Part shown: piece after piece, positions 3,175 through 31,500 of the stretch
How the letters are laid out: each line of letters opens with the position of its first letter
Position numbering within the stretch: position 1 is the stretch's first letter
Source of the DNA: Rugalucina vietnamica
Lineage: Eukaryota > Mollusca > Bivalvia > Lucinida > Lucinidae
Assembly: GCA_964017185.1 (NCBI GenBank)
Contig: OZ024874.1
Coordinates: 18,409,957 to 18,473,956, forward strand
Direction of reading: 5' to 3'
DNA length: 64,000 nt
The notes under the pieces: generated by a model
Told to the model about the DNA's origin: nothing
Seen by the model: the letters and a program-made list of their open reading frames with translations, nothing else
Databases searched by the model: none
Program-made: the position numbers and the translations under genes

Positions 3175-3980
3175 TGTTACGACCTAGCGTAACTAGACAG
3201 GTACAGCGAAAAACAACCAAGTAATTTAAACTTAACAATATTTAATCAAACAAATAAATGCTGCAAATACATACAAACAAACAAACAGATAAGTAAATAA
3301 ATAAATAAATAACTTACAAAGTTAATGTCAAATAAGTCCTTGTCCCTCAAATGTAAGTCCACAATCCAGTAACCAGAATATGAGCACATGTATATTTTAA
3401 TCCACACTTTTCTTCTAATCCAAAACACTAGTGAAACAACCAAAATTATATACTTTAAATCACTTCAAATTTCTGAATACCTACGACTGAATTGGGACCT
3501 ATATTTATACATCTAAGGAAATTCTCCAGGTTTCTACAGAATGATATAATAAACTTTTCTCTAGAAAAGAAACGAACTAAACGAAAGTTCTTTTAAATTC
3601 TCCAAAGAGAATTTAGAATTCTCCAGAGAGAATTCAAGGCCGCAACGACCATCAAGACTAAACGAGAGTCCACTAGACCCTTCGAGATCCCAGTATACAT
3701 AGTCCAAATATATTTTTAACTTATGGTAAAAAAAAACACTAACTCCATTTTCATCTGGAATTATCCACAAAGTGCTCATAGAATTTTCTATACTTCTAAA
3801 TTATATAACAGTGATAAAAATAATCAATGACATTCTTCTACAAAGTTCTAGATAATAAATTGTAGAAACATAAAAAGAAATATATATTAATTAATTGGGT
3901 TACTCCCCTTTGATTATATATATATATAAATTATAAGTAATAGCTTTTAAAATAATCAATTGAATCAATTATATATAACA
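3175..3980 (-). repeat. Long terminal repeat, 3' LTR of the minus-strand element
   Basis: 806 bp, ending in CA on the plus strand at 3980 and starting with TG at 3175. It matches 8854-9659 except for about two substitutions. It contains a short (AAAT)n tract and an (AT)n tract. The small open frames inside it (65 and 72 codons) occur identically in both LTRs and are not genes. Confidence 0.95.
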
Positions 3981-3992
3981 CTTCCCCTCTTC
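3981..3992 (-). promoter_or_regulatory. Polypurine tract
   Basis: On the minus strand the bases GAAGAGGGGAAG directly precede the 3' LTR, the expected place and composition for the plus-strand primer of reverse transcription. Confidence 0.8.
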
Positions 3993-4064
3993 AACGAAAA
4001 GAAAGTTTTGTGAAATAAAACTTTCTTTTGCAATACTCATATGCAAACATACAAGGCAAAACTG

Positions 4065-7000
4065 TCAAGCTCTTGAAAGGGTGTCTGGAATTATATTATC
4101 TCTACATTTTATGTGTCTAATGTCAAGATTGTGCTCTTGCAACATGAGACTTATGCTCTAGCTAATACTCAGATGGAGTCTCATTTTCATTTTGTGATGA
4201 TAGTAGAACTGAAACACTTTAAGTATGGCCCAAACTGAACAAAATTTCTGACAAGCCTTATTCCAAACATACCTGACCTTCTTATCATAAAGTAAGTTTG
4301 TCAAAGGCTCAGCTTTAATTGAACAAATATTACAGAACTTTCTGTAATATCCAGCCATACCCAAAAAGCGCATCAGTTGCCGTTTTCCTGTAGGAACAGG
4401 AAAATTTGATATAGCCTCAACTTTGGCTTCTACAGGTCTGACCTGACCTTGTCCAACAATATGTCCTAGAAATGTCAAACTAGCATGGCAAAATTCACTT
4501 TTCGGTAAGTTTATTGTCAGTTTAGCATCACTGAGTCTTTTGAAGAATTCTCTGATGATCTCCAGGTGTTTTTTCCACTCTTCACTGTAGATGATGGCAT
4601 CGTCGATGTAAGCTTTACACCCATCCAGACCGAAAATCAAACTATTAACCAAGCGAACCAAGCAACATTTCAGCGCTTTCAGTTTATTTCGAAATTGTCT
4701 TTCTGTAGTAACAAATTCTAAAATCTCCTTTGGACTGTCTGTAAATGGAATCTGCCAAAACCTTTTCAAAAGATCGAATTTCGTCACATATTTGGCGTGA
4801 CCAATGTTGTCGATGCAGTCATCAATTCTTGGTATGAGAAATGTGTCAGTTTTTGTGACAGAATTTACTTTTCTATAGTCTGTGCACATTCGAAATGTCC
4901 CATCAGATTTTGGCACAAGTATACAAGGAGAACTCCATTCACTTTGACTAGGTTCTATTAAGTCATTGTCCAGCAAATACTTAACTTCTTTCCTGAGATA
5001 TTGTTGTCTTTCAGGATGAAGTCTATACGGATGTTGTTTCACCGGTTTTGCTCCTTCAATAATGTCTACATCATGGTAGATTTTATCGGTTCTGGATGGA
5101 ATGTCCGGAAATAAGTGCTCATATTCAAGAATTAATTGTTTTAGTTCATGTTTCTTGTCCGGATCTAGATGTGACAGTTTCTGATCGAGGTCATGCAGAA
5201 TGTCAGAATTCTGGAGTTTTGGGGATAATGGTTCACAGTTCACAGAGTTCATTTCTTCAAAGTCTGTCTGATTTTGTTCATGAGGGACAGAATTAACTAT
5301 TCTTACTGAGGAAATAACTGAACTATCATTATCACTATCCCTATCAATGTACTTTTTAAGCATGTTAATATGACATAATTGTTTTTGCTTGCGCCTCCCA
5401 GGAGTGTTAACAATGTAATTTACATCACTTAACTTTTTCTCAACAGTATATGGACCATAATATCTAGCTTGTAATGGCCTGCCAGGAATGGGCAAAAAAG
5501 CAATCGCCTTGTCTCCAGGGTCAAAATTTCTGTTCTGAGCATTTTCATCAAAATGTAACTTCATTTTGCTCTGAGCTGACTTAAGATTGGACCGAGCAAC
5601 TTCCCAAGCTTTTGTCAATCTAGTTTTGAAGTCAGACACATACTGAAGTAAGTTCAAAGGACTGTCATTACTTGAAAGAAACTTCTCTTTCATAAGTTTT
5701 AAAGGTCCACGAACAGTGTGTCCGAAAACAAGTTCAAACGGACTGAACCCAAAAGACTCTTGTACTGACTCTCTGACAGCAAATAATAGCAAATGTATGC
5801 CTTCATCCCAATCTTTTTCGGTGTCAAAACAGTAAGATCTGATCATGTTCTTCAAAGTTTGATGGAATCTTTCCAAAGCACCTTGACTTTCAGGATGATA
5901 AGCTGATGACTTGTATTGTTTAATGCCAAGTTCATGCATTACTTGCTGAAATGTTCCTGACATAAAATTGGAACCCTGATCTGATTGGACTGATTTTGGA
6001 AGACCTACAAGTGTGAAAAACTTTACAAGGGCCTTAACTATTGTTTTCGTCTTGATATTCCTGAGTGGAATTGCTTCAGGAAAACGTGTTGAAGCACACA
6101 TTATAGTCAAGAGATATTGGCAACCTGATTTAGTCTTGGGTAACGGACCTACACAGTCAATGATAATCCTACTAAATGGTTCATCAAATGCAGGAATAGG
6201 CTGTAAATTAGCTTTTGGAATAGTCTGATTAGGTTTTCCTACCATTTGACAAGTGTGACAGGATTTGCAATGTTGGGAAACATCAGATTTTAATCCTGGC
6301 CAGTAGAAATGCTTGAGAATTTTGTGGTAAGTCTTATTTATCCCTAAATGACCTGACATGGGAGTTTCATGGGCCAAGTTTAAGATTTCAGGACGATAAG
6401 CCTTAGGAACCACAATTTGGTGATTTATGGTCCATTCGTCTTCCGCTGAAACATCAGGAGGACGCCATTTTCTCATTAAGATGTCATTTTTGACATAAAA
6501 ACAAACAGGAACCTGAGAAATTTCATTTTCATCTAAAGCCCTTTCAAATAAAGGCGAGATTTCAGGATCACTGTGCTGTTCTTGACAAAGTTGTGACCTT
6601 GACATTTGGTCGTGACCTTGGTCAAAAATTGAAGGTGAAAGGTCATTGTCTGACCTTTGATTGTTGAAGTCAGTTTGACTTGAAGAAAGAGATTTTGAAA
6701 TCTCATCATGAAAAGACTGACCTATAAAAGTGTCAGTTAAGTCAATATCCTGTATCCCATCATTCAATTTGACTTTTTTTGCCATAGCCCTTGTAACGGC
6801 ACATGAAGGGTAAAGATCAGGAATTTCCTGCTCAATGGGATCAGGCAATTGATCCTCACAAGGTGTATTGGTCAAAAGTGGGTTTACCACAACCTTATCT
6901 CCGGCTAAGTCATTGCCTAATAGCAAGTGAACACCTTTAAAAGGTAAAGAAGGCCTAATACCTACAGCCACAGGACCAGAAACTAAGTCTGAAGACAAAT

Positions 7001-8753
7001 AAATGTTATGGAGCGGTACATTAACAAATCCACACTCTACTCCCTGAATAAGGACACTTGTCCCAGTTGAAGTCTTCTCGGAAAAAGGCAGGGTATCTGC
7101 TAAAATAAGAGACTGAGAAGCTCCGGTATCTCGTAAGATTTTCATAGGGGTAGACTGGGCAGAATCACTAGTAAGTGACACAAAACCTTCTGATAAGAAT
7201 GGTTCATAAATCTCCATAATACAATCAGTCGCAGACGTTTTGGCCAAAATAGGATTTTCATCCTGAATAATCGACTGTGGTTTTGACCTTAAAGAAGTAA
7301 GACCTGTTGGTCTAGAATTATTTTGATTTTGTCTCTCTTTTCTTCTTTTCAAAGTTTCACATTCAGAAATGACGTGACCGTCACCTTTACAATAATTGCA
7401 AAACAGCCGGGGTGAGTATGAGGATCTTTGACCTTTGTTTTCACTAGTATCTTTATTTTTAGGATTATGTGAAGGACTGGAACTATCAGCTGTTAGTCCA
7501 GCTTGTGGTTGTGGATTAGGTTGAGGAGAATTATTTCTCTGTTGAGGGTTAAATGGTTTTGACTGAGGTGTATTAGGTTTAAATTGAGGGTTAAAAGGTT
7601 TCTTGTAAGGCTTATTTACAAAAGACACCTTATGAGTCAAAGCATAATCATCAGCTAATCGTGCTGCTACATCTAAAGTTTCTACTTCCCTTTCGTCAAG
7701 AAAAGATTTGACATCAGAGTGTATGCATCGTTTGAACTCTTCAACAAGCATGAGCTGTCTTAATTTTGCATGATCAGACTTTACATCCTTTGAAGAACAC
7801 CACCTATCAAATAATTGCTCCTTAGTTCTAGCAAATTCTACATGGGTTTGATCATGTTCTTTCCTACAATTTCTGAATTTCTGCCTGTAAGCTTCAGGTA
7901 CTAATTCATAAGCCTTAAGAATCAGATTTTTGACTGTGTCATAATCTGAACTTTGATCAAGTGGAAGCTGAGTGTAAATTTCTCGAGCTTTACCAATAAC
8001 AACACTCTGTAGAAGCAAGGTCCAATGCTCTTTTGGCATTTTCAAATTTTCTGCTACCTTCTAAAAATGTAAAAAGTACTTATCTACCTCTTTTTCTTGA
8101 AATGGAGGAACGAGCCTAATATGTTTTGTAACATCAAATACTTTACTAGGATCAAAAGACACAGGAGGCATTGATTTACTGCTTAATTCAAGCTCTTTCA
8201 TTTTTATTTCATAATGCATTTTCTCTTTTTCAAGTTCTACTCTTTCTAACATTTCTCTGTGTTTTTCCTTCTCTCGATCTTCCATATCTATTTTTTCCTT
8301 TGCAAGCCTTTCTTCTAATGCTAACTTTTGTTTTTCAAGCTCTAACTTTTCTATTTGTATTCTTTCCTCCCTTTCAGCCTTATCTCTTGCAAGTTTTTCT
8401 TCCCTTTCAGCCTTATCTCTTGCAAGTTTTTCTTCCCTTTCTTCCTTATCTGCCCTTCTTTTTTCTTCAAACTCTAATCTTAATTTTTCCAGTTCAAGAT
8501 GCCTTTTTAATTCTAACTCTTTCAACTGTATGTCGGTTTTTGAGACCATAATTAGAGATGTAGCTGAGGGTTCAAAAAATTCCTCATCAACAAGAAACTG
8601 AATGATAACATTCTTAATTTCACGTTTTAACATAGATGTTTTGACATCAGGTATGCTATAATGACTAGCAATGTCTAAAAGATCACTCTTTTTGGCCAAG
8701 TTTAACAGCTCTTGAGAAGGCGCAGCAATGAAATCTTCAAGTTTGAATAACAT
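4065..8753 (-). pseudogene. Degenerate gag-pol: Gag - protease - integrase - RT - RNase H remnant
   Basis: One reading frame runs from the first ATG (8753) to 4158, interrupted by a single in-frame TAG at 8061-8063. In order it shows: a charged Glu/Lys/Arg-rich coiled coil with a repeated DKAEREEKLAR unit (about 8230-8520); a SCAN-like capsid segment (about 7640-8130); a CX2CX4HX4C zinc knuckle (about 7380); an aspartic protease DTGAS at 7117-7131; an HHCC integrase finger; an integrase core with exactly 35 residues between the Asp of SDQG and the Glu of ALERF; and a Gypsy-like RT with YIDD at 4599-4610. Damage: TAG within the capsid region where glutamate is expected; the RT block that normally reads like PFGxxNAPxxF (about 4640-4690) is scrambled; and the RNase H core is missing, with only its C-terminal tail, ending DTLSRA-stop at 4065, left in another frame. 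It therefore cannot encode a working polyprotein. The TAG sits inside Gag, not at a Gag/Pol border, so I read it as a mutation, not programmed readthrough. Confidence 0.9.
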
Positions 8754-8825
8754 GGTTGCTTTTTGCTGGTATGACAAACAATAAATATCTTTTCAAATTC
8801 AGAATAATATAGGTGCACAAAATGT

Positions 8826-8848
8826 TCAATCCCGGCTCAGAGCCCCCA
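8826..8848 (-). promoter_or_regulatory. Primer binding site
   Basis: Five bases inside the 5' LTR edge. On the plus strand this reads like a tRNA 3' end: a GTTCAATCCC T-arm, an acceptor-like segment and a terminal CCA. Its complement begins TGGGGGC, the usual start of a retrotransposon primer binding site. I cannot assign the tRNA species. Confidence 0.7.
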
Positions 8849-8853
8849 AAATC

Positions 8854-9659
8854 TGTTACGACCTAGCGTAACTAGACAGGTACAGCGAAAAACAACCAAG
8901 TAATTTAAACTTAACAATATTTAATCAAACAAATAAATGCTGCAAATACATACAAACAAACAAACAGATAAGTAAATAAATAAATAAATAACTTACAAAG
9001 TTAATGTCAAATAAGTCCTTGTCCCTCAAATGTAAGTCCACAATCCAGTAACCAGAATATGAGCACATGTATATTTTAATCCACACTTTTCTTCTAATCC
9101 AAAACACTAGTGAAACAACCAAAATTATATACTTTAAATCACTTCAAATTTCTGAATACCTACGACTGAATTGGGACCTATATTTATACATCTAAGGAAA
9201 TTCTCCAGGTTTCTAGAGAATGATATAATAAACTTTTCTCTAGAAAAGAAACGAACTAAACGAAAGTTCTTTTAAATTCTCCAAAGAGAATTTAGAATTC
9301 TCCAGAGAGAATTCAAGGCCGCAACGACCATCAAGACTAAACGAGAGTCCACTAGACCCTTCGAGATCCCAGTATACATAGTCCAAATATATTTTTAACT
9401 TATGGTAAAAAAAAACACTAACTCCATTTTCATCTGGAATTATCCACAAAGTGCTCATAGAATTTTCTATACTTCTAAATTATATAACAGTGATAAAAAT
9501 AATCAATGACATTCTTCTACAAAGTTCTAGATAATAAATTGTAGAAACATAAAAAGAAATATATATTAATTAATTGGGTTACTCCCCTTTGATTATATAT
9601 ATATATAAATTATAAGTAATAGCTTTTAAAAGAATCAATTGAATCAATTATATATAACA
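8854..9659 (-). repeat. Long terminal repeat, 5' LTR of the minus-strand element
   Basis: Partner of 3175-3980, same 806-bp length. In the element's orientation the promoter should lie here and drive minus-strand transcription towards gag at 8753. Confidence 0.95.
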
Positions 9660-10458
9660 ATATAGAATAGGGAGTGTAGCGTTGTATTTAAAAACCAGAG
9701 GACCAATGGTCCTGTAAACGCTCATCTGAGATCTGCTTCATATACCAATAAACATATTTGAATATTATGGTATTTAACCCCAGTGCAGAGGCAGATGAAG
9801 CCCTTGGACCATTTTCTTTTTTCAGAATAATCAATATTCTGTCTATTTGCCAATTTCCTGCTGATTTTCCCCTTCAAATAACATTTTAAAAGCAGATGAG
9901 CCCCTGTGGTCCTTTTTTTTTTTCAGAATCATTAAATTTCAGTCCTACTGCCCATTTCCTGCAAGACTTTCACTAAAAATGACATTTTAAAAGTTTTCCC
10001 CATTCAAATGCATTGACGACCCATGTTGACTTTGCCATAAAATTATATATACATTGTAGTACTTGAGTCATCCATACTTCATGCAAAGTTTCGTTGAAAT
10101 CGGTTCACCGGTTCTGGAAAAGATATTTTAAGGGTTTTTACTATATATGGGCATGGCGGCCATCTTGGTCATGTGACCTGGATTATTTATATACACGTTG
10201 GTGCCCACTTCCTATAGATGCTTCATATAAAATTTGGCTTTGATTGGCCAAGTGGTTTCAGAGAAAAAAATCTTTGAAAAGTGTGTATGGACTACAGACC
10301 GGCCAAGGTCAAGAGATGACCTTGACCTAAATGAATCATATACCTTCATCTAATCCATTAGTTGTTTGCATCTACCACTTTTCAGATCTCAGGCTGCAAT
10401 AGTTTTCAAAAAATAGCTAATTTCCACTTTTCCCATTATAAGTCTATGGAAACTTAAA

Positions 10459-10472
10459 GTTACCATAGCAAC
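10459..10472 (+). promoter_or_regulatory. X-box-like palindrome, R1a module 1
   Basis: GTTACCATAGCAAC matches the RFX-family X-box layout: two GTNRCC-type half sites around AT. Seen in sequence; binding is inferred. Confidence 0.45.
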
Positions 10473-10775
10473 CAGAGTTCTTATCCGACTGGAATAAAAA
10501 ACACAAATTATGTAGAGGCTACTGTCAGGAACATGTATACAAAGTACAGGATTCATTCACTTGACAGTTTCTGAGGAGAAGATTTTTGAATGTTTTTTTC
10601 AAAATTTTGCCCTTTATGGGGCCCCAGCAATCAATCAAAATAAAGGATTAGGACAAAACTCGCAAGAAACGTCAAACACTACTAAATAAACATAAACAAA
10701 TTTCAAATGTCTGCAATTTTAGCGGAAAAATAGCTGATTTCCACTTTTCCCATTATAAGTCTGTGGAAACTTTAA

Positions 10776-10789
10776 GTTGCCATAGCAAC
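10776..10789 (+). promoter_or_regulatory. X-box-like palindrome, R1a module 2
   Basis: GTTGCCATAGCAAC, a fully symmetric-looking X-box with a 2-bp spacer, at the same place in the second module. Confidence 0.5.
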
Positions 10790-11099
10790 CAGAGTTCTTA
10801 TCCGCCTGGAATAAAAAACACAAATTATGTAGAGGCTACTGTCAGGAACACGTATACAAAGTATAGGCTTCATCCCCTTGACAGATTCTGAGAAGAAGAT
10901 TTTTGAATGTTTTTCGAAATTTTGCCCTATATGGGGCCCCAGCAATCAATCAAAATGAAGGATTAGGACAAAAGTCACATGAAACGTAGAGGACTACTCA
11001 ATAAACATTCCTGCAAAAACAAAATTCAAATATCTTCAACAAGACAGCAAAAACTGGCAATTTTCACTTTTTTCCATTATAAGTCTATGGGAAGCATAA

Positions 11100-11113
11100 G
11101 TTGCCATAGCAAC
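11100..11113 (+). promoter_or_regulatory. X-box-like palindrome, R1a module 3
   Basis: GTTGCCATAGCAAC again, in the third, partial module. Confidence 0.5.
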
Positions 11114-11323
11114 CAGAGTCCTTATCCGATCAAAACAAAAAAACACAATTATTCTTTCCCCCTACCTGTAGATGGTGTATGTGTAATATGAGAACAATCG
11201 GCCCAGCGGTTTCAGAGAAGAAGATCTTTGAAATTGTGGACGACGGACGGACGGACGACGGACGGACGCCGGAGCATGGGTATACTATAAGCTCACCTAT
11301 GAGCCTTCGGCTCAGGTGAGCTA

Positions 11324-11672
11324 AAAATCAGTAAGCAATGTGGAAAATTAGAGGAGTACCGTTTTATAATACAAGAATAGGTAAAATATACATGTTAAGC
11401 TGAAAAAGTGGTACCTTTTAATTGGTAAACAATATGTTTAAGTATTCAAGACAATTAAAAATAGGCTACGCAAGTGTTTTTTAGCCCCGTTGCCTACTAC
11501 TATACTAACCTATTATTGAGATCGGTTTTGTTGCAAATTTTACACGTCCTCTAACGCCCATGTATTTACTTCTACACCCTGAAGACCAGAGTCTGATAAT
11601 GTACTCCAGGCCAAAGAACACAACCAATACTACTTCCTGGAAGTATTAAAAAGAAAAAAAAATCAATAATAA
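11324..11672. other. Intergenic, nothing recognised
   Basis: About 350 bp of AT-rich sequence between R1a and a MITE. No gene, RNA or repeat that I can name. Confidence 0.4.
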
Positions 11673-11674
11673 TA

Positions 11675-11918
11675 CTGTATTCGTTCTAATTAGCGCACAC
11701 GCTCCAATAAGCGCACACCCCGGTCGTTTTAGACACATTAAGACTTAACTTTACACGACCAAACACTACTTTGCAGCGATTGGAATAATTAAATAACATA
11801 TTCATTGGTAAGTTTGACATTTGTTTGCGTTCCTAGTCTGCGCTTATTAGAACGATATTTTTTTACGTTTACTTAAACTTGTCCTGAAGGCACTGTGCGC
11901 TAATTAGAACGAATACGG
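11675..11918 (+). mobile_element. MITE family D, copy 1 (TA target site)
   Basis: 244-bp element with ~24-bp terminal inverted repeats beginning C(T/C)GTATTCGTTCTAATTAG, flanked by TA on both sides (11,673-11,674 and 11,919-11,920). A second, longer copy lies at 17,738-18,091. TA duplication and long TIRs fit a Tc1/mariner-mobilised MITE. No coding sequence. Confidence 0.85.
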
Positions 11919-12044
11919 TAGTTTATTCTGGGTGAAAAATCTGTTAAATCCGTGCATCTTGTTAATTCATTATGAAAACTTGCCTATACAATATACAGAT
12001 TTTTTTTTTCAATTGTAAACATTGAAATTTCACTGAAAAAAAAA

Positions 12045-12222
12045 ATCGATATTTTTCTTATTTTTGCTTAAAACATAGATTGTAGGTACCCGTTAGAACA
12101 GTCTCGCCGAGGCAGTTCTCACGAGTACCCACAATCTTATGTTTTGAGCACAAATAAGAAAAATAGGTAAACCCCTCCATACCTCAGTTTTGCTATATAA
12201 AAGTGGGGTTCAAGGGGGTATA
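12045..12222 (-). repeat. Foldback repeat family B, copy 2
   Basis: Same two hairpins as 297-477 in the opposite order. The large palindrome is centred near 12,104 and the CCCC/GGGG hairpin follows at about 12,172-12,222. Confidence 0.75.
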
Positions 12223-12229
12223 CATTACA

Positions 12230-12655
12230 CTGACATATTTCCCTGATATTTAGGGATGTTTTCAAGCCTTTACTCAAACGTATAGCCAAAGCTGTAGATC
12301 ATAAATACAGTTCTATTTGGTCATTTTAGGTGAAAAATCCAGTTTCGTGTGCTTTTTCGATTTAATATCTTATTTTTAGATTTATTCTAAAATACGTTTA
12401 GGGAATCCTCCTTGGAGATAATTAGGCCACCTTTTGCAATTCATGATAACAACTGTTACTGAAATGATGATTATATTATAGGGAGGAAATCTGAAATTTC
12501 AGAAAACACCATGTGTTGCATTGTATTTTCTCCTGCATCCCTTTCAAGGTGGACAGTCTCGTGACTGAAATCAGTTATTGCGTAGAACCAGTAAGCAATC
12601 AACTACTGGTTTCTTAAATTTAAATGAAATTTCACGGGACAAAGGGCGCGAGTGT
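12230..12655. other. Intergenic, nothing recognised
   Basis: No exon or RNA seen between the foldback repeat and the minisatellite. Confidence 0.4.
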
Positions 12656-12659
12656 TTAG

Positions 12660-13490
12660 TTAGCTAATGGTAAACGGTTAAAGATTCGACCATTTCATTG
12701 CAACTAAAGGTTAATGGTCAACAGTAAACGATTCGACTAGTTTATTCCAGTTAACGGCTGATGGTTAACAGTTAATGATTCAAACTTTACTGTTTTACAA
12801 TCACAGTAAGTTCACTGCTCATTTCATTCCAATTAACGGTTAACGACTGGACTATTTTATTCCAGTGAACGATTAACGGTTAAAGATTCGACTATATTAT
12901 ACCAGTTAAAGGTTAACGGTTGCCAGTCCCTGATGCAACTTATTATTCCAGGTGAACGGTTGACGGTTAACGATTGGACTATTTAAATTCAGTTAATGGT
13001 AAGCGGTTAACGATTCGAACATTTCATTCCACTTAACGGTTAACAGTTAATGCTTCAAACTTTAATGTTCATGGTTCACTGTTCATGGTTGACAGTTCCT
13101 GATTTAACTTTTCATTCCATTTAACGTATAACGGTTAATGATTCGACTTAACGGTTAACGATTAGACCTTTTCATTCCACTTACCGTTACTGTTTACTTT
13201 TCAAACTTAATTGTCTCAAGTTTACAATCAGAGTTTGTTCACGGATCACTGCTCATGGTTGACCTTATTATTCCAGTAAACGGTAAACGACTCGACTATT
13301 TTATTCAAGTTAACGGTAAACGGTTAACAGTTAAAGATTCAACTATTTCACTCCAGTACAGTTAACGGTTAATGGTTAACGATTCAAACTTTATTGTTTT
13401 TACAATCAGCGTTTATTCAAGGATCACGGCTCAAGGTTCACAGATCCTGATTCAGTTAACGTTCAACGGTTAACGATTCGACTATTTGAT
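12660..13490. repeat. Degenerate minisatellite built on TTAACGGTTAACGATT
   Basis: About 830 bp in which variants of TTAACGGTTAACGATTCGAC recur many times, spaced by ATTCCA- or TTTACAATCA-containing segments. Units are irregular, roughly 40-60 bp, with many substitutions, so the array is old. The AACGG core resembles a Myb recognition element, but any regulatory role is speculation. It ends about 490 bp before the inferred macin transcription start. Confidence 0.8.
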
Positions 13491-13729
13491 TGACTCTGAA
13501 GAATGCGAACGCCGAAAGCGCTGAGTTTGATTCGTTCTTGCACTGTTAATGATTTAATCCCCTAGGATACTTATTTCTAATCATTTTTTAAATCGTTTCT
13601 TAGGATCCAGCGCTACCAGGAAGATTTTTGTTTGATGTTTGTCTTAACACGGCTTCTCAAGTTTCATTTTTATCAAGGTGTGCTAATGATACGACATTTT
13701 GGATAAACTTGAAAACTAATACGAAATAT

Positions 13730-13949
13730 GAGCCGTTGCAAGGGAAAACCAACAATCTACAGGCACAGATCAGCTTCGCAGTCACTGCGAAGCTGATCAG
13801 CGCCTTTGTTTTCGCTACACGGATAGTACAATTCCTCTACTTTCTTAATCCAAAATTTCCAGCCTCTAACCATCTTCTGTGACTGTACAGACCGGTTTGT
13901 GTCGGGCCTGGTCGGAACCCAAATTGTTGGTTTTCTCACGCACAGGCTC
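13730..13949 (+). mobile_element. MITE family E, copy 1, abutting the macin promoter
   Basis: 220-bp element. Its ends are inverted repeats, GAGCC...GGAAAACCAACAAT against ATTGTTGGTTTTCTC...GGCTC, flanked by ATAT on both sides. An internal hairpin (ATCAGCTTCGCAG / CTGCGAAGCTGAT) sits at about 13,769-13,803. Other copies: 17,160, 25,680, 28,527, and fragments at 31,424 and 48,683. The open frames across it on both strands are repeat translations. Its right end touches the TATATA motif proposed as the macin core promoter. Confidence 0.85.
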
Positions 13950-13950
13950 A

Positions 13951-13957
13951 TATATAG
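13951..13957 (+). promoter_or_regulatory. Candidate TATA box of the macin gene
   Basis: TATATAG lies immediately after MITE E. Transcription about 30 bp downstream would start near 13,980 and reach a consensus splice donor (AG|GTAAGT) at 14,013. Inferred from layout only. Confidence 0.35.
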
Positions 13958-13979
13958 ATGTAAAACAATACACCTGATA

Positions 13980-14013
13980 CTCAAATAACACCAAGCGAGA
14001 AGTGTCAGTTTAG
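13980..14013 (+). other. Candidate 5' untranslated exon of the macin gene
   Basis: Ends at a textbook donor, AG|GTAAGT (14,012-14,019). A polypyrimidine-rich acceptor, ACCTTTTCCAG, ends at 14,225, 39 bp before the macin ATG. Together they suggest a short non-coding first exon and a 212-bp intron. RNA evidence is needed; the gene could instead start within 14,226-14,264. Confidence 0.3.
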
Positions 14014-14264
14014 GTAAGTATTTCATATACTAGATTTGTGTGTTTCTTCATCGCTTTTGAAATGCTGTCTAGAGGGATACGACAAGCTGTTTCATTTCAG
14101 CTACAACTTTGGTTTTGTCTGCGGGTGATTATCAGCGAGACATACCTGATATACCTTAGAAATAGAAATGATAAAATTCTAACACATATCTTACATGTAA
14201 CACTGCCTACTTGTACCTTTTCCAGCCAGTGCCTATTTAAAGTTTGACAAGGCCTTAAAAGACC

Positions 14265-15843
14265 ATGGGTCAGCTGTTGAAAATCACGGTAACATTACCG
14301 TTATTGGTTATCCTATACAACGTACATACGTTACAGCAACAAGTAGATGAGCAGTGCTGGGAGAGCTGGTGGAAATGCGCGGTACGAAGTGCATATGGGA
14401 CAAACACAAGGTGGGAGGCGTGCCATTTGAGGTGAGACGCATACATTGTACGGAAATTTATCAGCGAGTTCTTGAATAATATTAGATTTGCTGTTAATGA
14501 GGACTAAAACAAAATAACATTAAAAGCTCAAATTTACCAAATATATGTTAGTAATACCACTTTTAGGCAAAGCTCAAACTTGGTGATGCTCATATACATT
14601 CAATAACGTATAGTCTGATTGCATTGTATGGTATTTGGATAGTTTTTGCTTGTACTTTTCAAATTATTTGTTGCCAAAATGTAGTTACAACTAGCGAAAA
14701 AAGTTTTTTTTTCGGCAACCAGTACAAATCAAAATTAAGCCTGGTAACTCCCACTTTTTATTTGCTCAGTGCAAACATAAATATAATTAAGTATCAAGTC
14801 GTTTCTGGATTTATGGTCAATGACAACCTGTGCAATAAAACTGCCTCCCTTTGCAATCAATATTGATTTTTCCTGTTTGGGTGTAGAGTCTTTGTCAAAG
14901 CTCCAGGTTTTTCTAGTGTCCTGACCCTTTCATCAGCTAATGCCCCTAAATAGACTGGGAAGTATGTCATTAATAAGGTTGATTCCTGTAAATGATCACT
15001 ACTTATGACATGAATTACATTACATAATTTTTGTGATAATTGATTTTTCCCTTGACGTTTTCTCTCGGTTTCTTTACTTTTTAACACAAAACTAACACGT
15101 ATGCTCGAATTCTTGTCTTCTTTAATATGTTGTAATCGTTTACGAGGCAGAAATGTAAAATTAAATCTTTTATGGGCATTCTGTTTGCATTAAATAGATT
15201 TCACCTGATAAGTTTAAAGCGCTGTGTCCGTTTGAATTGTAGTATGAATGATACTTTGGCAATGGAGAACGCCAGTCATAGCGATCCTAGAACGCTAAAA
15301 TTATTATACTGTTTACAATTTCTGGTGCGTTTCACTCCAATTTCACTCTTTCTAGTGTCTAATTTTAGTCTTTTTTACAATGGATTTTGTAAAATAAGAT
15401 AGAAATAAAGCTTTTGGACTATATTAAAACTACATTTGTACATGTTATACATGTATTCTCTATAGACGGATACACGATGACTTCGTTTCGGTGCGCCATG
15501 TGCATGCGCTTGAAGTCAAAGATGGCCATATAAAAGGAAGTACCCAGTTATAATCAAAAGTGACTACAAAATATGTATAGGACAGGTACAAGTCGAACCC
15601 AGTGCCGGCCAGTGTCATTTTTATCATGCTATGAATATTTAATGTAAGAGGATCAATGAAACTGACTTACCCGCAGCACTGACCGATTAAAATGGTTCGC
15701 GTTCTGCGATTGCAGAGTGCGTTCTGTTTTGCCGCCAATAGGGTGTGTTAACTCTCATGTTTACTTTATAATTCTAGGTTTGACGGGGTAATTTTCGAAC
15801 GGAGATGTTTCCATGATATGTAGATTTCACATTATGCACAATG

Positions 15844-15894
<51 letters not shown>

Positions 15895-16077
15895 CGTTGA
15901 CAATCCTATATATTTTCACATAGATGCCACTGTTTAGGATGGAAATCTGGCTACTGCTGGCCCTTCAACGAATGCCCACTGGAAGGAAACCATCCCTGGA
16001 AATGCAAATGTTTTGGAACAAGTGAATTCTACAATTTAACAACATGCGGCAGAAAACCTGACGCTGATTATCATTAG
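14265..16077 (+). CDS. Macin-family antimicrobial peptide precursor, two coding exons
   Basis: Coding exons 14,265-14,431 and 15,924-16,077, joined across a GT...AG intron of 1,492 bp in phase 2 (the split codon AG|A gives Arg), encode 106 residues. Residues 1 to about 24 form a hydrophobic signal peptide starting MGQLLKITVTLPLLVIL. The mature part has ten cysteines and shows the macin hallmarks: CWESWWKC at its start, a Trp before a CxxxC pair (WEACHLRC), then CxLG, a CP motif and a CKC pair. Macins (theromacin, neuromacin, hydramacin, mytimacins) are secreted Cys-stabilised antibacterial peptides of leeches, molluscs and Hydra; ten cysteines match the theromacin/mytimacin type. A role in innate immunity, secreted from epithelium or haemocytes, is inferred from the family. 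No stop, frameshift or splice defect is visible. No AATAAA is obvious close downstream. It is the only confident host gene here and has no neighbour to suggest an operon or cluster. Confidence 0.88.
14432..15923 (+). other. Macin intron
   Basis: Begins GTGAGA and ends ...CACATAG. It holds an (AAAT)n microsatellite 30 bp before the acceptor. Open frames at 14,624-14,866, 14,857-15,087 and 15,172-15,402 lie inside it and look spurious. No recognised transposon in the rest. Confidence 0.75.
15842..15893 (+). repeat. (AAAT)n microsatellite
   Basis: About 13 units of AAAT, close to the macin splice acceptor. Confidence 0.95.
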
Positions 16078-16249
16078 CATCTACCCATATGCTTCTGAAA
16101 ACATTGTGCTGAGAAATTATCTGGAATTACTACATTATAGTGTTCAAACATTGCATAGAATGAGTATACTGTAATCAACATCATTTCATCAGTATGAGAT
16201 ACCTGAAGAACCCAATTATTCGCTTAATTTCTTTTTTCATCAGGAAAAC

Positions 16250-16395
16250 ATCGCAGTGCAATATATACCTCCTTGAACCCCAGTTTTATATAGAAAAAAC
16301 TGGGGTTTGCAGGTGTATACTTATTTTTGCTCCAAAACATAAATTGTGGGTACTCGTTAGAACCGCCTCAGCGACCTGCACCCACAACATATGTT
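16250..16395 (+). repeat. Foldback repeat family B, copy 3 (truncated)
   Basis: The CCCC/GGGG-type hairpin (about 16,266-16,320) is intact. The large palindrome has lost its central loop and most of one arm, jumping from CGCCTCAGCGA straight into CACCCACAAC. Confidence 0.7.
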
Positions 16396-16399
16396 TTAA

Positions 16400-17155
16400 C
16401 CATGACGCGCATTAAACTGCATGCTGTATAACAGTTAAGAGCGTAGCATTCCGAGTTATGTGTAATTTACCCATAAAATTTCATTCATTCTAAAGAAGAC
16501 TATGGCCGAATTGCTTACTGGTTATGTCCGAATACTAGTGCTCAAAAACAATTTTTGTCATGTGATTGTCCACCTTGCATTACTTTGAAAATCAATGTAA
16601 AAGTTTATAGATATTAAATGGTTATATGACAAACACATAGTGTTATCTGATGCAGTGTATGCTATCTAGAAAAGAAATCGTCTGGGGGAGGAATTATATG
16701 ACATTATTGATGGACATTTCAATTTCAACGCGTTTGATTTGATTAAAATACAATGATTGTATATCTTTGGCATAAAAAGGTTCAAAGCCTGGCTACCGAT
16801 TTTCATAATCACACTACATGTTATTAAAGTTAAATATACAAGATCATTTTTTTTTTATTTAAAACTATCCCTATTAAAGGTATAACGATACGATTTGATG
16901 TTTTATCAATATTCAGTGAAGTTTTTCCCATAAGAATGAATATGGAAAGGCGTGAAAACAACAACAACAGCAACAACAACAAAAACAACGTTAAGAGCAG
17001 ATTGAGGAAGGTATTCTATAAATATTTTATAAAAGCCAACTTACCATCCAAAATAAAGTTTCGAAGGCGAACCCTGAGTAATCATCTATAGTTGACAGGA
17101 CACTAAATATAAGGCAAACTAGCACCATCATGAACCTGAAATATACAAATTACAA
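16400..17155. other. Intergenic, nothing recognised
   Basis: AT-rich; a short (AAC)n run lies at about 16,960-16,988. No gene or named repeat. Confidence 0.4.
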
Positions 17156-17159
17156 CAAT

Positions 17160-17330
17160 TGAGCCAGTGCGTGAGAAAACAATTTGGGCTTCCGACCAGG
17201 TCCGACACAAACCGGCCTGTACAGTCACAGAAGAAAGCTTGAAGCTTGAAACTTTGCATAAAAGCAAAAGAGGAATTGTACTTTCCATGTAGCGAAAACA
17301 AAGCCTGTCTTCTTTCCCGTTGGCAATCAC
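17160..17330 (-). mobile_element. MITE family E, copy 2 (one end degenerate)
   Basis: Inverted relative to 13,730-13,949. The GAGCC...GTGAGAAAAC end and the body with GACACAAACCGGCC are clear, but the hairpin end is eroded. Three overlapping open frames here are repeat translations. Confidence 0.75.
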
Positions 17331-17737
17331 CAAGGTCGAATTTTAAAATGTGTAACAACTTTAACCGTTACAAGAGTCTTCTCCGAGAACCAATTTGTAT
17401 CAATTCTGTTTCCATTAAAGGATTTTCATCAACTGTGGATTAGCTTTCTCTCTATTAATGCTACAAGGAAGTAACTTAATTTCAACAAGGAAAAACAGTT
17501 ATTTAAAATCCAAACTTGAAGGTTTCATTGCAATATCCTATTTGGTGCTTGGCTTCTTCCATTAGTCACTAATTTTCATTTCCGGAAATAACGTGTACTT
17601 TGTAACCATCTTCGTGAAGGGCATCTTTAAATGCTTGTACATACTGGTAATCACAGAGTTTAAATATTTTGCTGTAACCGTCGCTTGTGTGTACATCCAT
17701 TATGTATGATTAAAAAGTATTACTTAGAAAGTAAGTA

Positions 17738-18091
17738 CCGTATTCGTTCTAATTAGCGCTCGTGCTCCAATAAGCGCATACACTGGTCGATTCCGAAAAG
17801 AATTTGCATAAGCGCACACTGTTCGACTAACATATTTATATTGTATACCAATTTTACCCATAAATACCGTATTGACCACATCAAAACTTAACCTTAGACG
17901 ATCAAGCACTATTTTTCAACGATTGGAATACTTACATGATATCATCATTGGTATTTTTGACATTGTAATTTCAGCAGTTTATATACTGTTTTTGTTTCAA
18001 GTATGCGCTTATTAGAACGATATTTTGTGACCTTAATTTTAAGTTATTTTGAAAAGTTAAGCACACTGTGTGCTAATTAGAACGAGTACGG
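17738..18091 (+). mobile_element. MITE family D, copy 2
   Basis: 354 bp, with TIRs matching 11,675-11,918. Segment B has the unoccupied site near 23,770, so insertion followed the A/B duplication, or B lost it. The left flank is TA; the right flank has drifted to CA. Confidence 0.85.
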
Positions 18092-18456
18092 CATATGCCA
18101 AAACACCCCTGATATTCTATAGTTGAATGTTTGGCGGAAGGAAGTGTAACTAAAACAAGAAGAGCTGATATAAAGCCACACAATCATACATGGTTAAATC
18201 ATCTATGAAGTCTGGACTAGTCCATCATTATCACTTGAATGAGCTTACGCACATTTTAGGGACTTTTTAATGTGGTTTTCAATTTTCATCTATTTTTTCA
18301 CTAGAATGCATCTGAGCAAAACTATACTGAATAGCCCCAGACGAAATGCCCGGTTCTGCTTTTTAATATCCGGTAGTATACTTTTGCCTATGACCGTGAA
18401 AGAAGATGCCGGACTTTGGGACATTAAATGATTAGAAAATATTTTATTTTATACTT

Positions 18457-18587
18457 TACAGTGAAAACCAATGCATATCAAAACTTGGTAAAATTGATAT
18501 TTTCATTGATATGAAGTTTCACTGATATCAAATCTCACTGATATCAAAAGTCATTAGTGACTGATATCAGCCTATATCTTCACTGTA
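18457..18587 (+). mobile_element. Small MITE, TACAGTGAA ends
   Basis: 131 bp bounded by TACAGTGAA and TTCACTGTA, with repeated ACTGATATCA motifs inside. Absent from segment B. Confidence 0.6.
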
Positions 18588-18851
18588 GATTTTGGATTAC
18601 TTCTGACGTTTCCATTTACTTTACGTCATTAAATGTGTCTCACTTCAGAAATTCAAACACCTATAACTCCCGTTTATTTATGAACGAAATTATAAAGTGT
18701 GTGTAATCATTTTCTTAGTTAAAACGAAAGGAACAATGTAGTACCAAAATTATTTGTGTTTGCAAAAATTTTGGTTTTTGCATTTTCACCGCCTGCCTTG
18801 TGAATTGGAAAATGCCCGTGTATTGTATAAAATAAAAAGAATTTTTTTTTT

Positions 18852-18982
18852 GGTAAATACCACATATATTTAATCTCGTGAGTTGAAAAAAATCAAAAAA
18901 AAAAAAAAAATCACTCATGCTGCGCACTCGTGAAAATTATGATGTTTTCAACTCACTCGATGAAATATATTTGGTATTCACC
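18852..18982 (+). mobile_element. Small MITE with ~38-bp arms
   Basis: Arms GGTAAATACC...GTGAGTTGAAAA and TTTTCAACTCAC...GGTATTCACC pair over about 38 bp around a loop containing a 16-18 A run. Absent from segment B. Confidence 0.7.
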
Positions 18983-21900
18983 TCAAAAAAGCAAATATCC
19001 TCTATATATTCTACCGATAACGCTACACAATAGAATTTGTCAAAGTGTCATCACTCATTTTCTCCGAATCTTTCAAAATCTACGATAATGGTGAAAATTC
19101 AAAATTCATGAACATGGTGGCAAATTGCATAGACACACTGGCGTAAAATAAAATCTGAAATCTTGAAATCTTGTCTGCACGAAGGATTATGGACGCGTAT
19201 TTGCTATGTGGTTTTCTTATCTTGCGTGTTAATTAACTTCTGAAGTCGGAAATATGTCGTAATAGAATTCTGATGCCCAAAAGAGAAACCCTGATTTCGA
19301 GTTTTCAGATCTGACACAAACCGGTTGTGCAGCCATTTTTAAAACTGTGAAGGAGCTTAGGAAATAGATAGGAAAGAACAGATTCTGATTATTAGTGACG
19401 TTGGAATCAATCAACCCATTTTTTGCATTACATTAAACATTTTTTCATCGCGACGCTCAAATATAATCTAGCAACACATTTCGATGCATCAAAGTTTAAC
19501 TGAAATCCAGAAAATAATAAGAACATGCATTTACATGTAAATATCACGCAATGCTCCAAAAAATTAACCAAATTTTGTCTTTTCTGTACTTGATCATAAA
19601 ATACCTAGATTTAGATGAACTCTGGCGACGTTTGTAAATAACGCTTACGTACACGTATTAAGACGGTTTGTTAGATTCAAAACCGTCAGAATAATTGTTA
19701 TCATTTGATTTGGTATATTTTCATTTGGTAATCGTCCTTTAATGGTATGTTCTTGCTTCTATATTTTCTGACAACTGTTCCCTGTCGTCCGTGTCATTTC
19801 TACTAAAGTGCGTTTTATTGTAGACATTAATTTGATCATTAAAATCTCCGCCTGACACTCCAGTCATTCATTTAATCACATTTAATGGCTTAGCCAGAAG
19901 AAACCCTTGATATTCCATATTTCTTACGTTGGCAAACGGTACAGACCAAGATCAGGCCCCACAGACAGCTGCTTTCGACTGGTCAGTGTCATCACCGTTC
20001 CCTTATGTATGACACCAAGTACCAAAACCAGAGTTTCATAAACATACACAGCATAACATCCCGTCTACTCGAAATAACAATCTGGCAATAATGAGACACT
20101 TTCATACGTCAATAATCGGTAAAAGTCTTGGACCGACAATATTGGTTACGGAGACATATGTTGCAATAACACCATGCCAGTTGATATGGTGCAAATTATA
20201 TGTTTCTGACGAGAAAACGTTTGTTTGTATCAAATTTCTATATGCCAGACATGACTGCGTGTAAAATAAAAATACAACAATTGATGTAGGTGTATGGCCT
20301 CGTAACATCGGTGTGCTTGAGGATGCTTGGATATGTTTTTCAGACGGACAGATAACCATATATTTAGGCTTAACCAATGACTTAAAAGCAACGTAAGAAA
20401 AGAAAACACGCGACATGATAGATTCATGATACAATTAACTTGTAATCCCAACCTAGGCACACGACAGGAATGAAAGTACAGCACCAAACATCACAAGAAA
20501 TTCCCAGAAATGGAGCACAGATTTACCTGAATATCGAATCATTATACAGATAGGTAAAATGTTGCAAAAAAAAAACATGAACAGTAACGACAAAACACAA
20601 AACACTCTGCCTAAATGTAAACATATGCCACAAAAATGATCGTATAGCGAAATGGGTAAACATAGGTATGTTATATTTTTATAATCTCAGATTTCTTGAA
20701 TTTTAGAATATTTAATTCGCCATTCCTGCTGCTGTCACTAATGGAGTTCTGATTAAGTGCTAGTCGTCATTGTACGCGTAATGGTTATATTTATCACTTC
20801 TGCTAAAAGCGTCAGCTTCAAGTTTCAGCGACTAAAAGCAGCAATTTAGATGACAACATTTCGATGGCATCGCTGCATCTGATGAGCCGTCTCCAAAAAT
20901 ACACCTAAATAAACCGAGTTAACTTTCCTGTACCCAGTGAATGTGCCGAGATCATTTAGTTCTAAGCATATCACATGACTGGTTGTTGTATTCAGATGTC
21001 AGCGCAACCATTCGTAAAGTTTCGCACATTTCTTTTGCTTTGGCAGAAGTGGGTTTAGACTTTAAATTTTCCATAAGACAATGTGTTGAATGCTCCGTTA
21101 TTTCTATATGTAACTAATTTTGTGTAATGTACTTTAACTTTATTTCAAATAAGCCTTTCTGGGTATAGCTACAATACTTTTACACACATGAGCAATCCAT
21201 AGGAATCTGCCTCAAGTTTGAGTCGGTTCTGGTCGGAAAAATCGAAAATGGGATTTTGGAGATAGCTCGCTGGGCCGACAATTCTTTCTATTTGTATCAG
21301 TATTTTGTTTTCATTTTAGTTGTTAACCACTTCGATCTTGCATCAGGAGGGTCGTCATTTTGTTCAAACCTCACCAGTTTATTGCCATTGCTTACCTAAA
21401 ACTAACATATATTTATCACTTTCATTCCATTAGCTATTGCTGTTGATCTGATCGGGATTTGTCTAATAGAAGAGTTCCATACACAGCGTTGCCTTAATAA
21501 AGACAACCTGATGCATTTAATTTCATCTTTAGCCTATTGGGATATAAAGCCTATTTTAATTTCGTATTCTCTTCACTTAATTAGGTTAGGGATCTGAAAA
21601 TTTACAATATCAAAGTTTTACAGTACATGTAAATCTTACGGCAGGATTGCAAGTAATATGACATCGTTTTCTGGGGCACTGATTCAAGATAACAATTGAT
21701 AGTGTTAGGATAAAAGGGCATTTCTGGTTTGGTTCCAAATATACAAAGATGCTGGACAGAACCTTGAAACATTTTTAACACTGATTGGCTACCACCTGCG
21801 ACGCAAAAATCTACAAAATGGCTGCGCATTTTAAGCTCCAATGAAACATTGCTTCATTTTTCCTGGTAACACTATGTCAAGTTATATTGCAGATTTCTAT

Positions 21901-23024
21901 TTAATATTAATGATTTAGAGATTAAGCTAATTATCAATATCAACCGCCAACATCAGCTGAAAATTTTATTGTACATTGATACAATCGATGCCAGAAAATG
22001 CACTAGTGCAATGGGCAGCACTTTAAATGAATGATTTGAATATGCGCTTGGTGGTAAAAGAACAATTTTGGATTGTATCACACCCTAATGACTCTGAGTC
22101 GATAACAAATAAGAATCACAAAGAGAAATATTATTTTCTCACCTGTAGTTGCTAAAATAAAAATCAGTACATTTAATGGCCTCAGCCAGGTAGATCCTTA
22201 TGACTACATAATCACTTAGATAAGACAATTCATGGGTGTTGGGTATTGTAGTAAGACTGTTTAATGTCGGTGATCGTGCAATGCCAATACTATCATACAA
22301 TGCCTATACTGCAACTACATGTACAGCAAAATAATGTCCCTTTAACAAAAGGTAAAAGAAAGCAATAATCAGGAACTTGTGACATAAAATCCGACACACA
22401 CTAAAATCACAGGTGGGCAATAACCAAATTGACAATATGGTAATGATACAAACAGAACATAACGTAAGCTTAGTACTTCTGGTTAAAGACACATTTTGTA
22501 AGGCGCATATATTTATGATGCGACAAGTTCATCAGCAAGAATCTAGTAGTAACTGATCTGGTCAGATTGAAACCAGACGTAATCTGTCTCACAGGCGTAT
22601 TATTTTGCTATGTAATTGGCACGCCGGAAACAATTTCTTGATTTCAGCAGGACAAATTTGTAGTCTGGATATGATTCGAACGATAATATACAAAAGTTCT
22701 CAATCCGATTCAATTGTAATTAACACCGGCTGCAAGGATGCTTCAACATCAACTAAAATCACGTTATGCTGGATTTGCATATAATATTGCAAGAAAGGTT
22801 TCAGAATCATTAAAGAACGAAACGATAATATACCACATTAGAAGTCAAGCAACGCAAGCAATGGTTATGCTGGTCTGCTTCATCGTAATATGCACAAGCT
22901 ATCTTGCAGATGTTCGGCATCTTAAGTGACATACGCGTCTTTAAAACAATTTGTCCCGCTGAGATGTCGTGTTGTGTCCATGAGCTAGATACATTTACTC
23001 CATAGAATACTGGTTAACATCCGG

Positions 23025-23425: not shown

Positions 23426-25679
23426 GTTACAAGAGCCTTCACTGAGAACGTATTTGTATCAATTCTGTTTCCATTAAAGGATTTTCATCAACTCTGGATT
23501 AGCTTTCACTCTATTAATTCCACATGGAAGTAACTTAATTTCAACAAGGAAAAACAGTAATTTAAAACCCAAACTTGAAGGTTTCATTGTAATATCCTAT
23601 TTGGTGCTTGGCTTCTTCCATTAGTCACTAATTTTCATTTCCAAGTATAACATGCACTTTGTAACCATCTTCGAGAAGTGCATCTTAAAATGCTTGTACA
23701 TATTGAAAGTCACAAAGTGTATATGTGTACACCCATTATCATTGATAAAAAAGTACTACTTAGAATGTACGTATATTCAAAAACACCCCTGTATTCTATA
23801 ATTAAATATTTGGCTGAAGGAGGTATAACTAAAACAATTAGAGCTGATACAAAATCACGCAATTACAAATGGTTATCATATCTTTGAAGACTGGACTTGT
23901 TCGTCAGTATAATTTGAGTGAGCTTACTCACATTTTAGGGACATCAGAGGTGGTTTTCAATTTCCATTTTTTTTTAATGAAATGCATCTAAGCAAAACTA
24001 TACTGAATAGCCCCAATTGCCCGGGACGTCCGGTTCTGCTTTTTTAAATATCCGGCAGTATACTTTTTGCCTATGTCATTGAAAGAAGACACCGGACTTT
24101 CGGAGATTAAATGATTAGAAATTATTAGGTTCTACTGATAACTCTACATAATAAAATCTGTCAAAATGTCATCTCTCCTTTTTTTCGAATCTTTCAAAAT
24201 CTACGATAACGGTGAAAATTTAAAAATCATGAACATGGTGGCAAATTGCAAAGACATACTGGCGTAAAATAAGATCTTAAATCTTGAAATCTTGTCTGCA
24301 CGAAGGATCATGGACGTGTATTTGTTATGTGGTTTTGTTATCTTGCGTGTTAATTAAGTTCTGAAGTCGGAAATATGTCATATTATATGAATTCTGACGC
24401 CCAAACGAGAAACGCCGATTTCGAGTTATCCTACCAGGCCTGACACAAACCAGTTATGCGGCCATTTCAGCTGTGAAGGAGCTTAGGAAATAGATAGGTT
24501 GTGATGAAATAAAAATAACAGAATCTGAATATCATTGACGTTGGTGTCAATCAACCAGTTTTTGCATTATATCAAACTTTTTTTTCATTGCGGAGCTCAA
24601 ATATAATCTAGCAACACATTTTGATGCATCAAAGTTCAACTGAAATCTAGAGAATAATAAGAACATGCATTTAAATATCACGCAATGTTCCAAAAATAGA
24701 GAAAATTAAACAAATTTTGTCTTTTCTGTACTTGATCATAAAATACCTAGATTCAGATGAACTCGTCGATGTTTTATATAACGCTTACGTTTACGTATTT
24801 AGACGGTTTATTACATTCAAAACCGTCAGAAAAATTGTTATCATTTAATTTGGTATATTTTCAATTGGTTATCGTCCTTTAATGGCATAGGCTTGATTTC
24901 ATATTGTCTGACAACTGTTCCCTGTCGTCCATGTCATTTCTACTAAAGTGCGTTTTTGTGTAGACATTAATTTGATCATTAAAATCTCCGCCTGACACTC
25001 CAGTCATTCATTTAATCACATTTAATGGCTTAGCCAGAATAAACCCTTATGGGATTGATATTCCACATTCTTACGTTAGCAAACGATACAGACCAAGATC
25101 AGGCCCCGCAGACAGCGACTTTCAACTGGTCAGTGTCATCGCCGTTCTGTTATGTATGACAACACCAAGTACCAAAGCCGGAGTTTTCATAAACACACAT
25201 AACATCCCTGCTACTGGAAATAACAATCTGACAATAATGGGACACCTCATACGCCAATAATCGGTAAAATTCTTGGACAGGCAATATTGGTCACGGAGAC
25301 ATATGTTGCATTAACACCATATCAGTTGACATGGTGCCAATTATATTTTTCTGACGAGAAAACATGTGTTTGTATCAAATTTCTATATGCCAGACATGGC
25401 TGCGTGTAAAATGAAAATATAACAATTGATGTAGGCGTAGCACTGGGGCCTCGTATAAGATCGGTGTGCCTGAGGATACGTTGATATGTTTTTCAGACGG
25501 ACAGATAGCCATATATTTAGGCTTAACTTATGACTTAAAAGCAAAGTAAGAAAAGAAAACACGCGACTTGATACAATTACTTGTAATTCCAACCCAGGCA
25601 CACGACAAGAATGAAAGTACAGCACCAAAACGCACTACATTCCCAGAAACGGATCACAGATTTACTTGGATATAGAATT

Positions 25680-25901
25680 GAGCCGCCGCATGGGAAAACC
25701 AACAATCTACATAGGCGAAAACAAAAGGCGCAGTTACTGCGAAGCTGATCAGCGCATTTGTTTTCGCTACACGGATAGTACAATTCCTCTTCTTTCTAAA
25801 TCCAAAATTTCCAGCCTCTAACCATCTTCTATGACTGTACAGGTCGGTTTGTGTCGGGCCTGTTCGGAAACCAAATTGTTGATTTTCTCACGCACAGGCT
25901 C
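25680..25901 (+). mobile_element. MITE family E, copy 3
   Basis: 222 bp with GAGCC...GGCTC ends, flanked by AATT on both sides. The empty site is in segment A near 20,533. Confidence 0.85.
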
Positions 25902-26514
25902 AATTGTTATACCGACAGGTAGAGTGTAACAAGTTGCCATAACACGTATGAAGGGCAAGGTGACTGGGTCTTTCCCAATAAGGTATACATCCGGTTAGCA
26001 TCAACCAAATACAATGGTGATAAGTACAACAAAAAGGTAGACATAATAATAATGATAATAATAAAAATAATAATAATAAAAAACATGAATAGTAATGACA
26101 CATGCGAACATATGCCTTAGAAATGATCGTATAACGAAATGGGTAAACATAGGTTTGCAATATCCTTATAGTCTAAGATTTCTTAAATTTGAGAATATTT
26201 TATTCGCCATTCCTGCTGCTATCACTAATGGAGTTCTGATTAAGTGCTAGTCGAGATTGTACTCGTAATGGTTATATTTATCACTTCTGCTAAAAGCGTG
26301 AGCTTCAAGTTTCAGCGACTAAAAGCAGCAATTTAGATGACAACATTTCGATGGCATCACTGCATCTGATGAGCTGTCTCCCAAAACAAAACACCTAAAT
26401 ACACCGAGCTTGCTTTCCTGTACCCAGTGAATGTGTCGAGATCATTTATTTCTAAGCGTATCAGGTAACAACCGATTGTTGTATTCAGCTTCCGCGCAAC
26501 CATTCGTTAAGTTT

Positions 26515-31423: not shown

Positions 31424-31500
31424 GCGAAAACAAAGGCGCATATCAGCTTTGCCGCTGAAAGCTGATCAGCGGCTTTGTTTTCGCTACACGGATATTATAT
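31424..31500 (+). repeat. MITE family E, hairpin core only
   Basis: The GCGAAAACAAAGGCGCA / GCGGCTTTGTTTTCGCTAC hairpin without the terminal repeats. Confidence 0.65.

Follow-up and report, generated by a model that had tools for sequence, protein, structure and literature searches.

An intact two-exon gene predicted to encode a secreted macin, and its duplicated relatives, in a lucinid bivalve genome

Two short exons in a 64-kb stretch of Rugalucina vietnamica DNA (hereafter the window), located on the 72-Mb contig C6, were read in an initial annotation as an intact, secreted macin divided by a single intron. Do these exons form a real gene, and is the product a macin? The question was addressed by examination of the locus, by homology searches and by a survey of the source genome (1.09 Gb, 47 contigs). 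With a probability of about 0.9, we consider the locus to be an intact host gene for a predicted secreted, disulphide-rich antibacterial macin, which would be one of a duplicated family.

Gene structure

Coding exon 1 (14265-14431, forward strand) begins with an ATG, encodes a hydrophobic leader and Cys1-Cys3 of the macin domain, and ends in phase 2 at AG/GTGAGA. An in-frame TAA is present at 14256, nine bases 5' of this ATG. The following intron (14432-15923, forward strand, 1492 bases) runs from GTGAGA to TTCACATAG, is in phase 2 and lies directly before Cys4. Coding exon 2 (15924-16077 including the TAG stop, forward strand) encodes Cys4-Cys10 and then a C-terminal tail, GRKPDADYH. When the two exons are joined in phase 2, they yield 106 residues with ten cysteines, and the coordinates and GT-AG join of the initial annotation are exact in the sequence. 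The macin signatures that it had listed, namely CWESWWKC, LG after CHC (CHCLG), CP and CKC, were each found in the joined peptide.

Similarity to known protein families

A phmmer search of the window peptide against 177,635 distinct PDB sequences returned hydramacin-1 (E 3.9e-7), theromacin (0.26) and one unrelated chain (0.44), with no others listed. Because the HMMER composition correction for the hydramacin-1 match was 13.4 bits, a control was run in which the cysteines were kept in place and the remaining residues of the window peptide were shuffled (n = 5000). Against hydramacin-1 the shuffles averaged 37.1 (s.d. 8.7) and peaked at 91, and none attained the observed alignment score of 125; two attained the theromacin score of 82. 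A profile built from five macin models of this genome gave a similar picture against PDB, with hydramacin-1 at E 3.8e-8; the remaining 18 chains listed, headed by theromacin at 0.083, all had E values of at least 0.083 and included several defensins and some unrelated chains. Theromacin alone was thus not a significant match either to the window peptide in phmmer or to the five-model profile against PDB. With an 11-model profile, hydramacin-1 scored 41.5 bits, compared with at most 21.0 for its 2000 cysteine-fixed shuffles, and theromacin scored 15.8 bits, a value equalled by one of its 2000 shuffles. These scores indicate that the window peptide is homologous to a solved macin, hydramacin-1, beyond the matching of cysteines.

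A profile search had also been proposed as a check on family membership, and its outcome was divided. Macin (PF14865) was the sole Pfam family matched by the window peptide, and the match was nearly end to end (profile positions 2-59 of 60), but the score of 9.7 bits did not attain the curated cut-off of 27. The PF14865 model itself leans to the theromacin type, since the theromacin fragment scores 94.4 bits with it and the hydramacin-1 fragment 33.6. In our view the shortfall reflects a limitation of the model, the cut-off being a filing rule and not a biological feature. Among seven macin models of this genome scanned against Pfam, two matched Macin (best E 0.098) and one matched Gamma-thionin (E 0.015); two models scanned later had no Pfam match. 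NCBIfam, a library that covers prokaryotes, also gave no match. A whole-genome Pfam family search found none either, but 14 control genomes were likewise silent, and this result is uninformative.

Macin genes elsewhere in the genome

Searching all six frames of the genome with the window peptide gave 22 matches from 24 candidates. Fourteen of the 22, two of them the window's own exons, fall in ten of the 11 complete two-exon models that were built; the eleventh (C3d) came from reading a fetched region (L033) and not from the 22 matches. Including the window gene, the models are distributed over contigs C6 (one), C13 (three), C1 (two), C3 (four) and C8 (one), and the start codon of one of them, C3b, is uncertain. 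Three loci were excluded from the 11, namely C5:9.34 Mb and C15:15.89 Mb, which yielded exon 2 and exon 1 alone, respectively, and C15:34.50 Mb. Weak matches on C9, C2 and C10 and at C13:43.08 Mb also stand outside this set, and the family size is a lower bound. At C15:34.50 Mb (L030:4733-5005), a macin-like gene reads through the usual intron place with no intron, and pattern scans did not find its 3' part. One further match in the genome search (L010) appeared thrombospondin-like by eye.

The best support for the splice join comes from these models, because each of the 11 has a phase-2 intron with GT-AG ends (318-1631 bases) directly before Cys4 and ten cysteines counted from Cys1, and ten of the 11 have the 6-14-3 spacing. 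The first of these spacings, six residues between Cys1 and Cys2, is constant in all 11; the second loop of the C3c model is 16 residues long, and the C8 model departs in its later spacings. Two unrelated short reading frames spliced by chance would fit the shortness of both exons and the Pfam Macin score below cut-off, but ten other complete models contain both exon types, paired and ordered, around an intron of identical phase and position, and the hydramacin-1 alignment crosses the exon junction, so that the probability of a chance join is negligible. Taken together, the hydramacin-1 homology, the 6-14-3 spacing and the genomic family of the same structure leave the intact, secreted two-exon macin of the initial annotation as the best reading, and on this sequence evidence we regard the locus as a real, intact gene and an ordinary addition to the macin family.

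A tree of the 11 models had one well-supported inner branch out of eight, together with long branches, and was set aside. The 11 complete models nevertheless provide a ready set for the study of macin diversification. Moreover, the locus illustrates how a short, intron-split defence gene that falls under both ORF scanning and the Pfam cut-off may be recovered by exon pairing with confirmation within the genome.

A duplicated copy on contig C13

The closest relative of the window gene lies on another chromosome-sized contig (C13:15524042-15525292, reverse strand; L024). It is intact, encodes 106 residues and is 75% identical to the window peptide, from which it differs at 26 of 106 residues. 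The two genes share the intron place and phase, all ten cysteines, a double Trp (CWENWWKC in the copy) and a nearly identical tail (GEKPDADYD). The copy differs in having a 936-base intron, against 1492 bases in the window, and in lacking an inverted-repeat element found at the window promoter.

These shared features bear on two details that had been described as distinctive. The tail GRKPDADYH does not merit that description, given GEKPDADYD in the C13 copy and 4-23 residues after the last cysteine in all 11 models. The double Trp is not unique to the window gene either, but it is absent from the other nine models. C-terminal amidation was also considered, as GRK after Cys10 resembled an amidation and cleavage site; it was dropped because the corresponding residues of the C13 copy are GEK.

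The similarity extends well beyond the coding sequence. A blastn comparison of window positions 9000-22000 with the C13 region identified a 5' stretch common to both copies (13651-14450, forward strand), broken by the inserted element, and a 3' stretch (15876-16105, forward strand) with 84% identity over 231 columns. We infer that the two genes stem from the duplication of one DNA segment, with upstream sequence, the intron and the 3' flank all included. A retroposed copy was ruled out, since the genes have in common the DNA on either side as well as the intron place. Mytimacins are among the six mussel peptide families mentioned in a passage of PMC7653742, a study of gene presence-absence variation, and on that account a dispersed extra macin copy would not be unexpected.

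Exon 1 is 77% identical between the copies, with the same donor, and exon 2 is 76% identical. The coding alignment spans 321 bases with no indel, and 49 of 318 sense bases differ (17, 12 and 20 at the first, second and third codon positions). In a simulation in which 49 substitutions were placed at random (20000 runs), 32.8 +/- 2.8 amino-acid changes were expected, compared with the 26 observed, and 267 runs were as low. Only 698 of the 20000 runs were free of a stop and 323 kept all ten cysteines; both genes have retained an open, cysteine-complete coding sequence since the duplication. NG86 gave dN 0.125 and dS 0.417, and YN00 gave dN 0.151 and dS 0.238, the latter ratio, near 0.63, signifying weak constraint only. 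These estimates indicate a moderate constraint between the two copies, as would fit a defence peptide that is diversifying.

Putative promoter region and an inserted element

Upstream of the coding sequence, a TATA-like box (TATATAG, 13951-13957, forward strand) is suggested by its motif and by the alignment of the copies, the aligned place on C13 reading TATAAAT. Beyond it lies a putative 5' non-coding exon (13980-14013, forward strand) that ends TTTAG/GTAAGT and whose start was guessed at about 25-30 bases 3' of the TATA-like box. Such an exon is suggested because the two copies agree exactly over the donor block TTTAG/GTAAGTATTT (donor at 14014), which is followed by a candidate acceptor after 14100 or 14225. 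The first of these (TTTCATTTCAG) is kept in the C13 copy and the second (TTTTCCAG) is not. The stretch 13953-14214 as a whole is 71% identical between the copies. In a motif scan of 700 bases upstream of five other paralogues, a TATA motif with such a donor was found only in C13a. A 5' non-coding exon, absent from the earlier description, is proposed as a probable further part of the window gene.

Directly 5' of the TATA-like box lies a MITE-like terminal-inverted-repeat element, TGAGCC...GGCTCA, of about 222 bases (approximately 13729-13950, with boundaries accurate to within a few bases). At the homologous place the C13 sequence is continuous and the element is absent. The element has matches at five more positions in the window (17160-17303, 25679-25902, 28572-28728, 31434-31497 and 48688-48758); the copy at 25679-25902, nearly full length and 89% identical, was used to compare the ends.

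An element in this position, missing from the C13 copy, could have cut the gene off from upstream control sequences, leaving a silenced duplicate whose coding sequence is intact but unexpressed. The only moderate constraint between the pair is in line with that history; against it, no stop, frameshift or cysteine loss has arisen since the duplication (dS 0.24 to 0.42), the splice sites are intact and the TATA-like motif remains. We judge silencing improbable. A further proposal, speculative and in our view doubtful, is that the element gave the C6 copy a new core-promoter setting, so that it is now expressed at a different time or place from its C13 twin, and that the single phase-2 intron within the alpha-beta motif, which sets the 11 complete models apart from the one-exon leech genes, may mark a mollusc macin line. 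Because only the C6 member of the C6/C13 pair carries the promoter insertion, the pair offers a natural test of the effect of a small transposon on immune-gene expression.

Predicted peptide and proposed action

The macin family is a member of the cysteine-stabilised alpha-beta superfamily. In the window peptide the cysteines are spaced 6-14-3-1-7-5-9-1-11, and the eight core cysteines are present, with the CxxxC and CxC of the alpha-beta motif. Judged by order, each of the 11 models also has Cys5 and Cys10, the extra pair of ten-cysteine macins. The N-terminal hydrophobic stretch reaches a best 12-residue hydropathy of 2.36, hydropathy being the sole criterion for the leader. The peptide carries a charge of +2 (K+R minus D+E) and, counted from Cys1, seven Trp.

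A leader of about 22 residues would be removed on secretion, and the mature part would begin near Cys1 (residue 31). Judging by their positions, Cys3-x3-Cys4 and Cys8-x-Cys9 would form the alpha-beta motif. Cys1 and Cys7 are both present and may form the macin-specific fourth bond; Cys5 and Cys10 could likewise form the fifth bond of ten-cysteine macins. According to part of PMC5116183, an additional bond between Cys1 and Cys7 may be a mark of macins, and the fifth bond of ten-cysteine members joins Cys5 to Cys10. In a passage of PMC6780910, the fifth bond of theromacin is given as C31:C73, and residue 31 of theromacin, judged by spacing, is its fifth cysteine. The same source, in the part available, describes two hydrophobic hemispheres and a positive belt, bacteria that are clumped and then permeabilised, and an activity that drops in salt. 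By analogy with these family members, the folded window peptide would carry two hydrophobic faces and a positive belt, and would clump bacteria and then permeabilise their membranes. Its seven Trp and small positive charge are in keeping with this mode of action. Such a mechanism, as in other macins, is the most likely one, with the bonds, fold, secretion and activity all predicted.

The charge of +2 is low for a membrane-active peptide and was counted against the antibacterial macin explanation. Additionally, net charge including tails is negative in four of the ten other models (C13a, C13c, C1a and C1b). These charges would suit a secreted cysteine-rich peptide of macin descent whose main job is not antibacterial but, for example, tissue repair or signalling, and leech macins are described in a passage of PMC6780910 as also promoting nerve repair. 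However, family members tested elsewhere were antibacterial, according to passages of PMC5116183 and PMC11767717, and we consider a mainly non-antibacterial role quite unlikely. An antibacterial macin thus remains the preferred reading.

Other features of the window

The macin had been called the only confident host gene in the 64 kb. When 19 of the 24 stop-to-stop ORFs of at least 100 residues were run against Pfam, none reached its cut-off. This negative is weak, because Pfam also missed frames that were reverse-transcriptase-like by eye, and it tests the statement only in part. The best of the 19 was a frame at 134-460 (forward strand) with a weak match to the gamma-butyrobetaine hydroxylase N-terminal domain (16.4 bits, cut-off 22.8). 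This frame had no PDB match, and it is perhaps a host-gene exon at the window edge.

Rfam identified a SECIS_1 selenocysteine-insertion-like element at 39055-39122 (reverse strand; 37.6 bits, above the 35-bit cut-off) and a second SECIS_1-like element at 50073-50140 (reverse strand; 30.4 bits, below it). Each overlaps the 3' end of one of two copies of a single reverse-transcriptase-like element, which looks Penelope-like from its motifs. Selenocysteine has been reported in Penelope-like elements; no such paper was found in our literature search. In addition, a Ty3-type retroelement was recognised by eye at 3592-9313 (reverse strand), and a 21-base tandem repeat lies close to each of its ends (3592-3634 and 9271-9313), probably within the two terminal repeats. 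At 57432-58161 a unit of 323 bases is repeated in tandem (2.2 copies).

Comparison with known macins

Within molluscs, passages of PMC5116183 and PMC11767717 mention macins of Mytilus, Hyriopsis, Haliotis and the Manila clam, and mytimacin-AF of Achatina has ten cysteines according to part of PMC5116183. Mytimacins and other mollusc macins, likened here by description only, are expected to be the nearest group to the window macin. A literature search at passage level found no published intron structure of mollusc macins.

Among the solved structures, hydramacin-1 of Hydra (PDB 2k35) shares with the window peptide the 6-14-3 spacing, the CWE start and a CxC near the end, with residues 30-86 aligned. 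It differs in having eight cysteines, without Cys5 and Cys10, and its 60-residue chain stops soon after the CxC. Theromacin of Hirudo (PDB 2ln8) shares the 6-14-3 spacing, the CxC, the additional Cys5 and the loop of seven residues that follows, but its sequence match is weak (E 0.26) and its Cys4-Cys5 spacing is 2, compared with 1 in the window peptide. In gene structure, the leech macin genes surveyed in the available part of PMC12109416 have one exon, whereas all 11 models described here have two coding exons.
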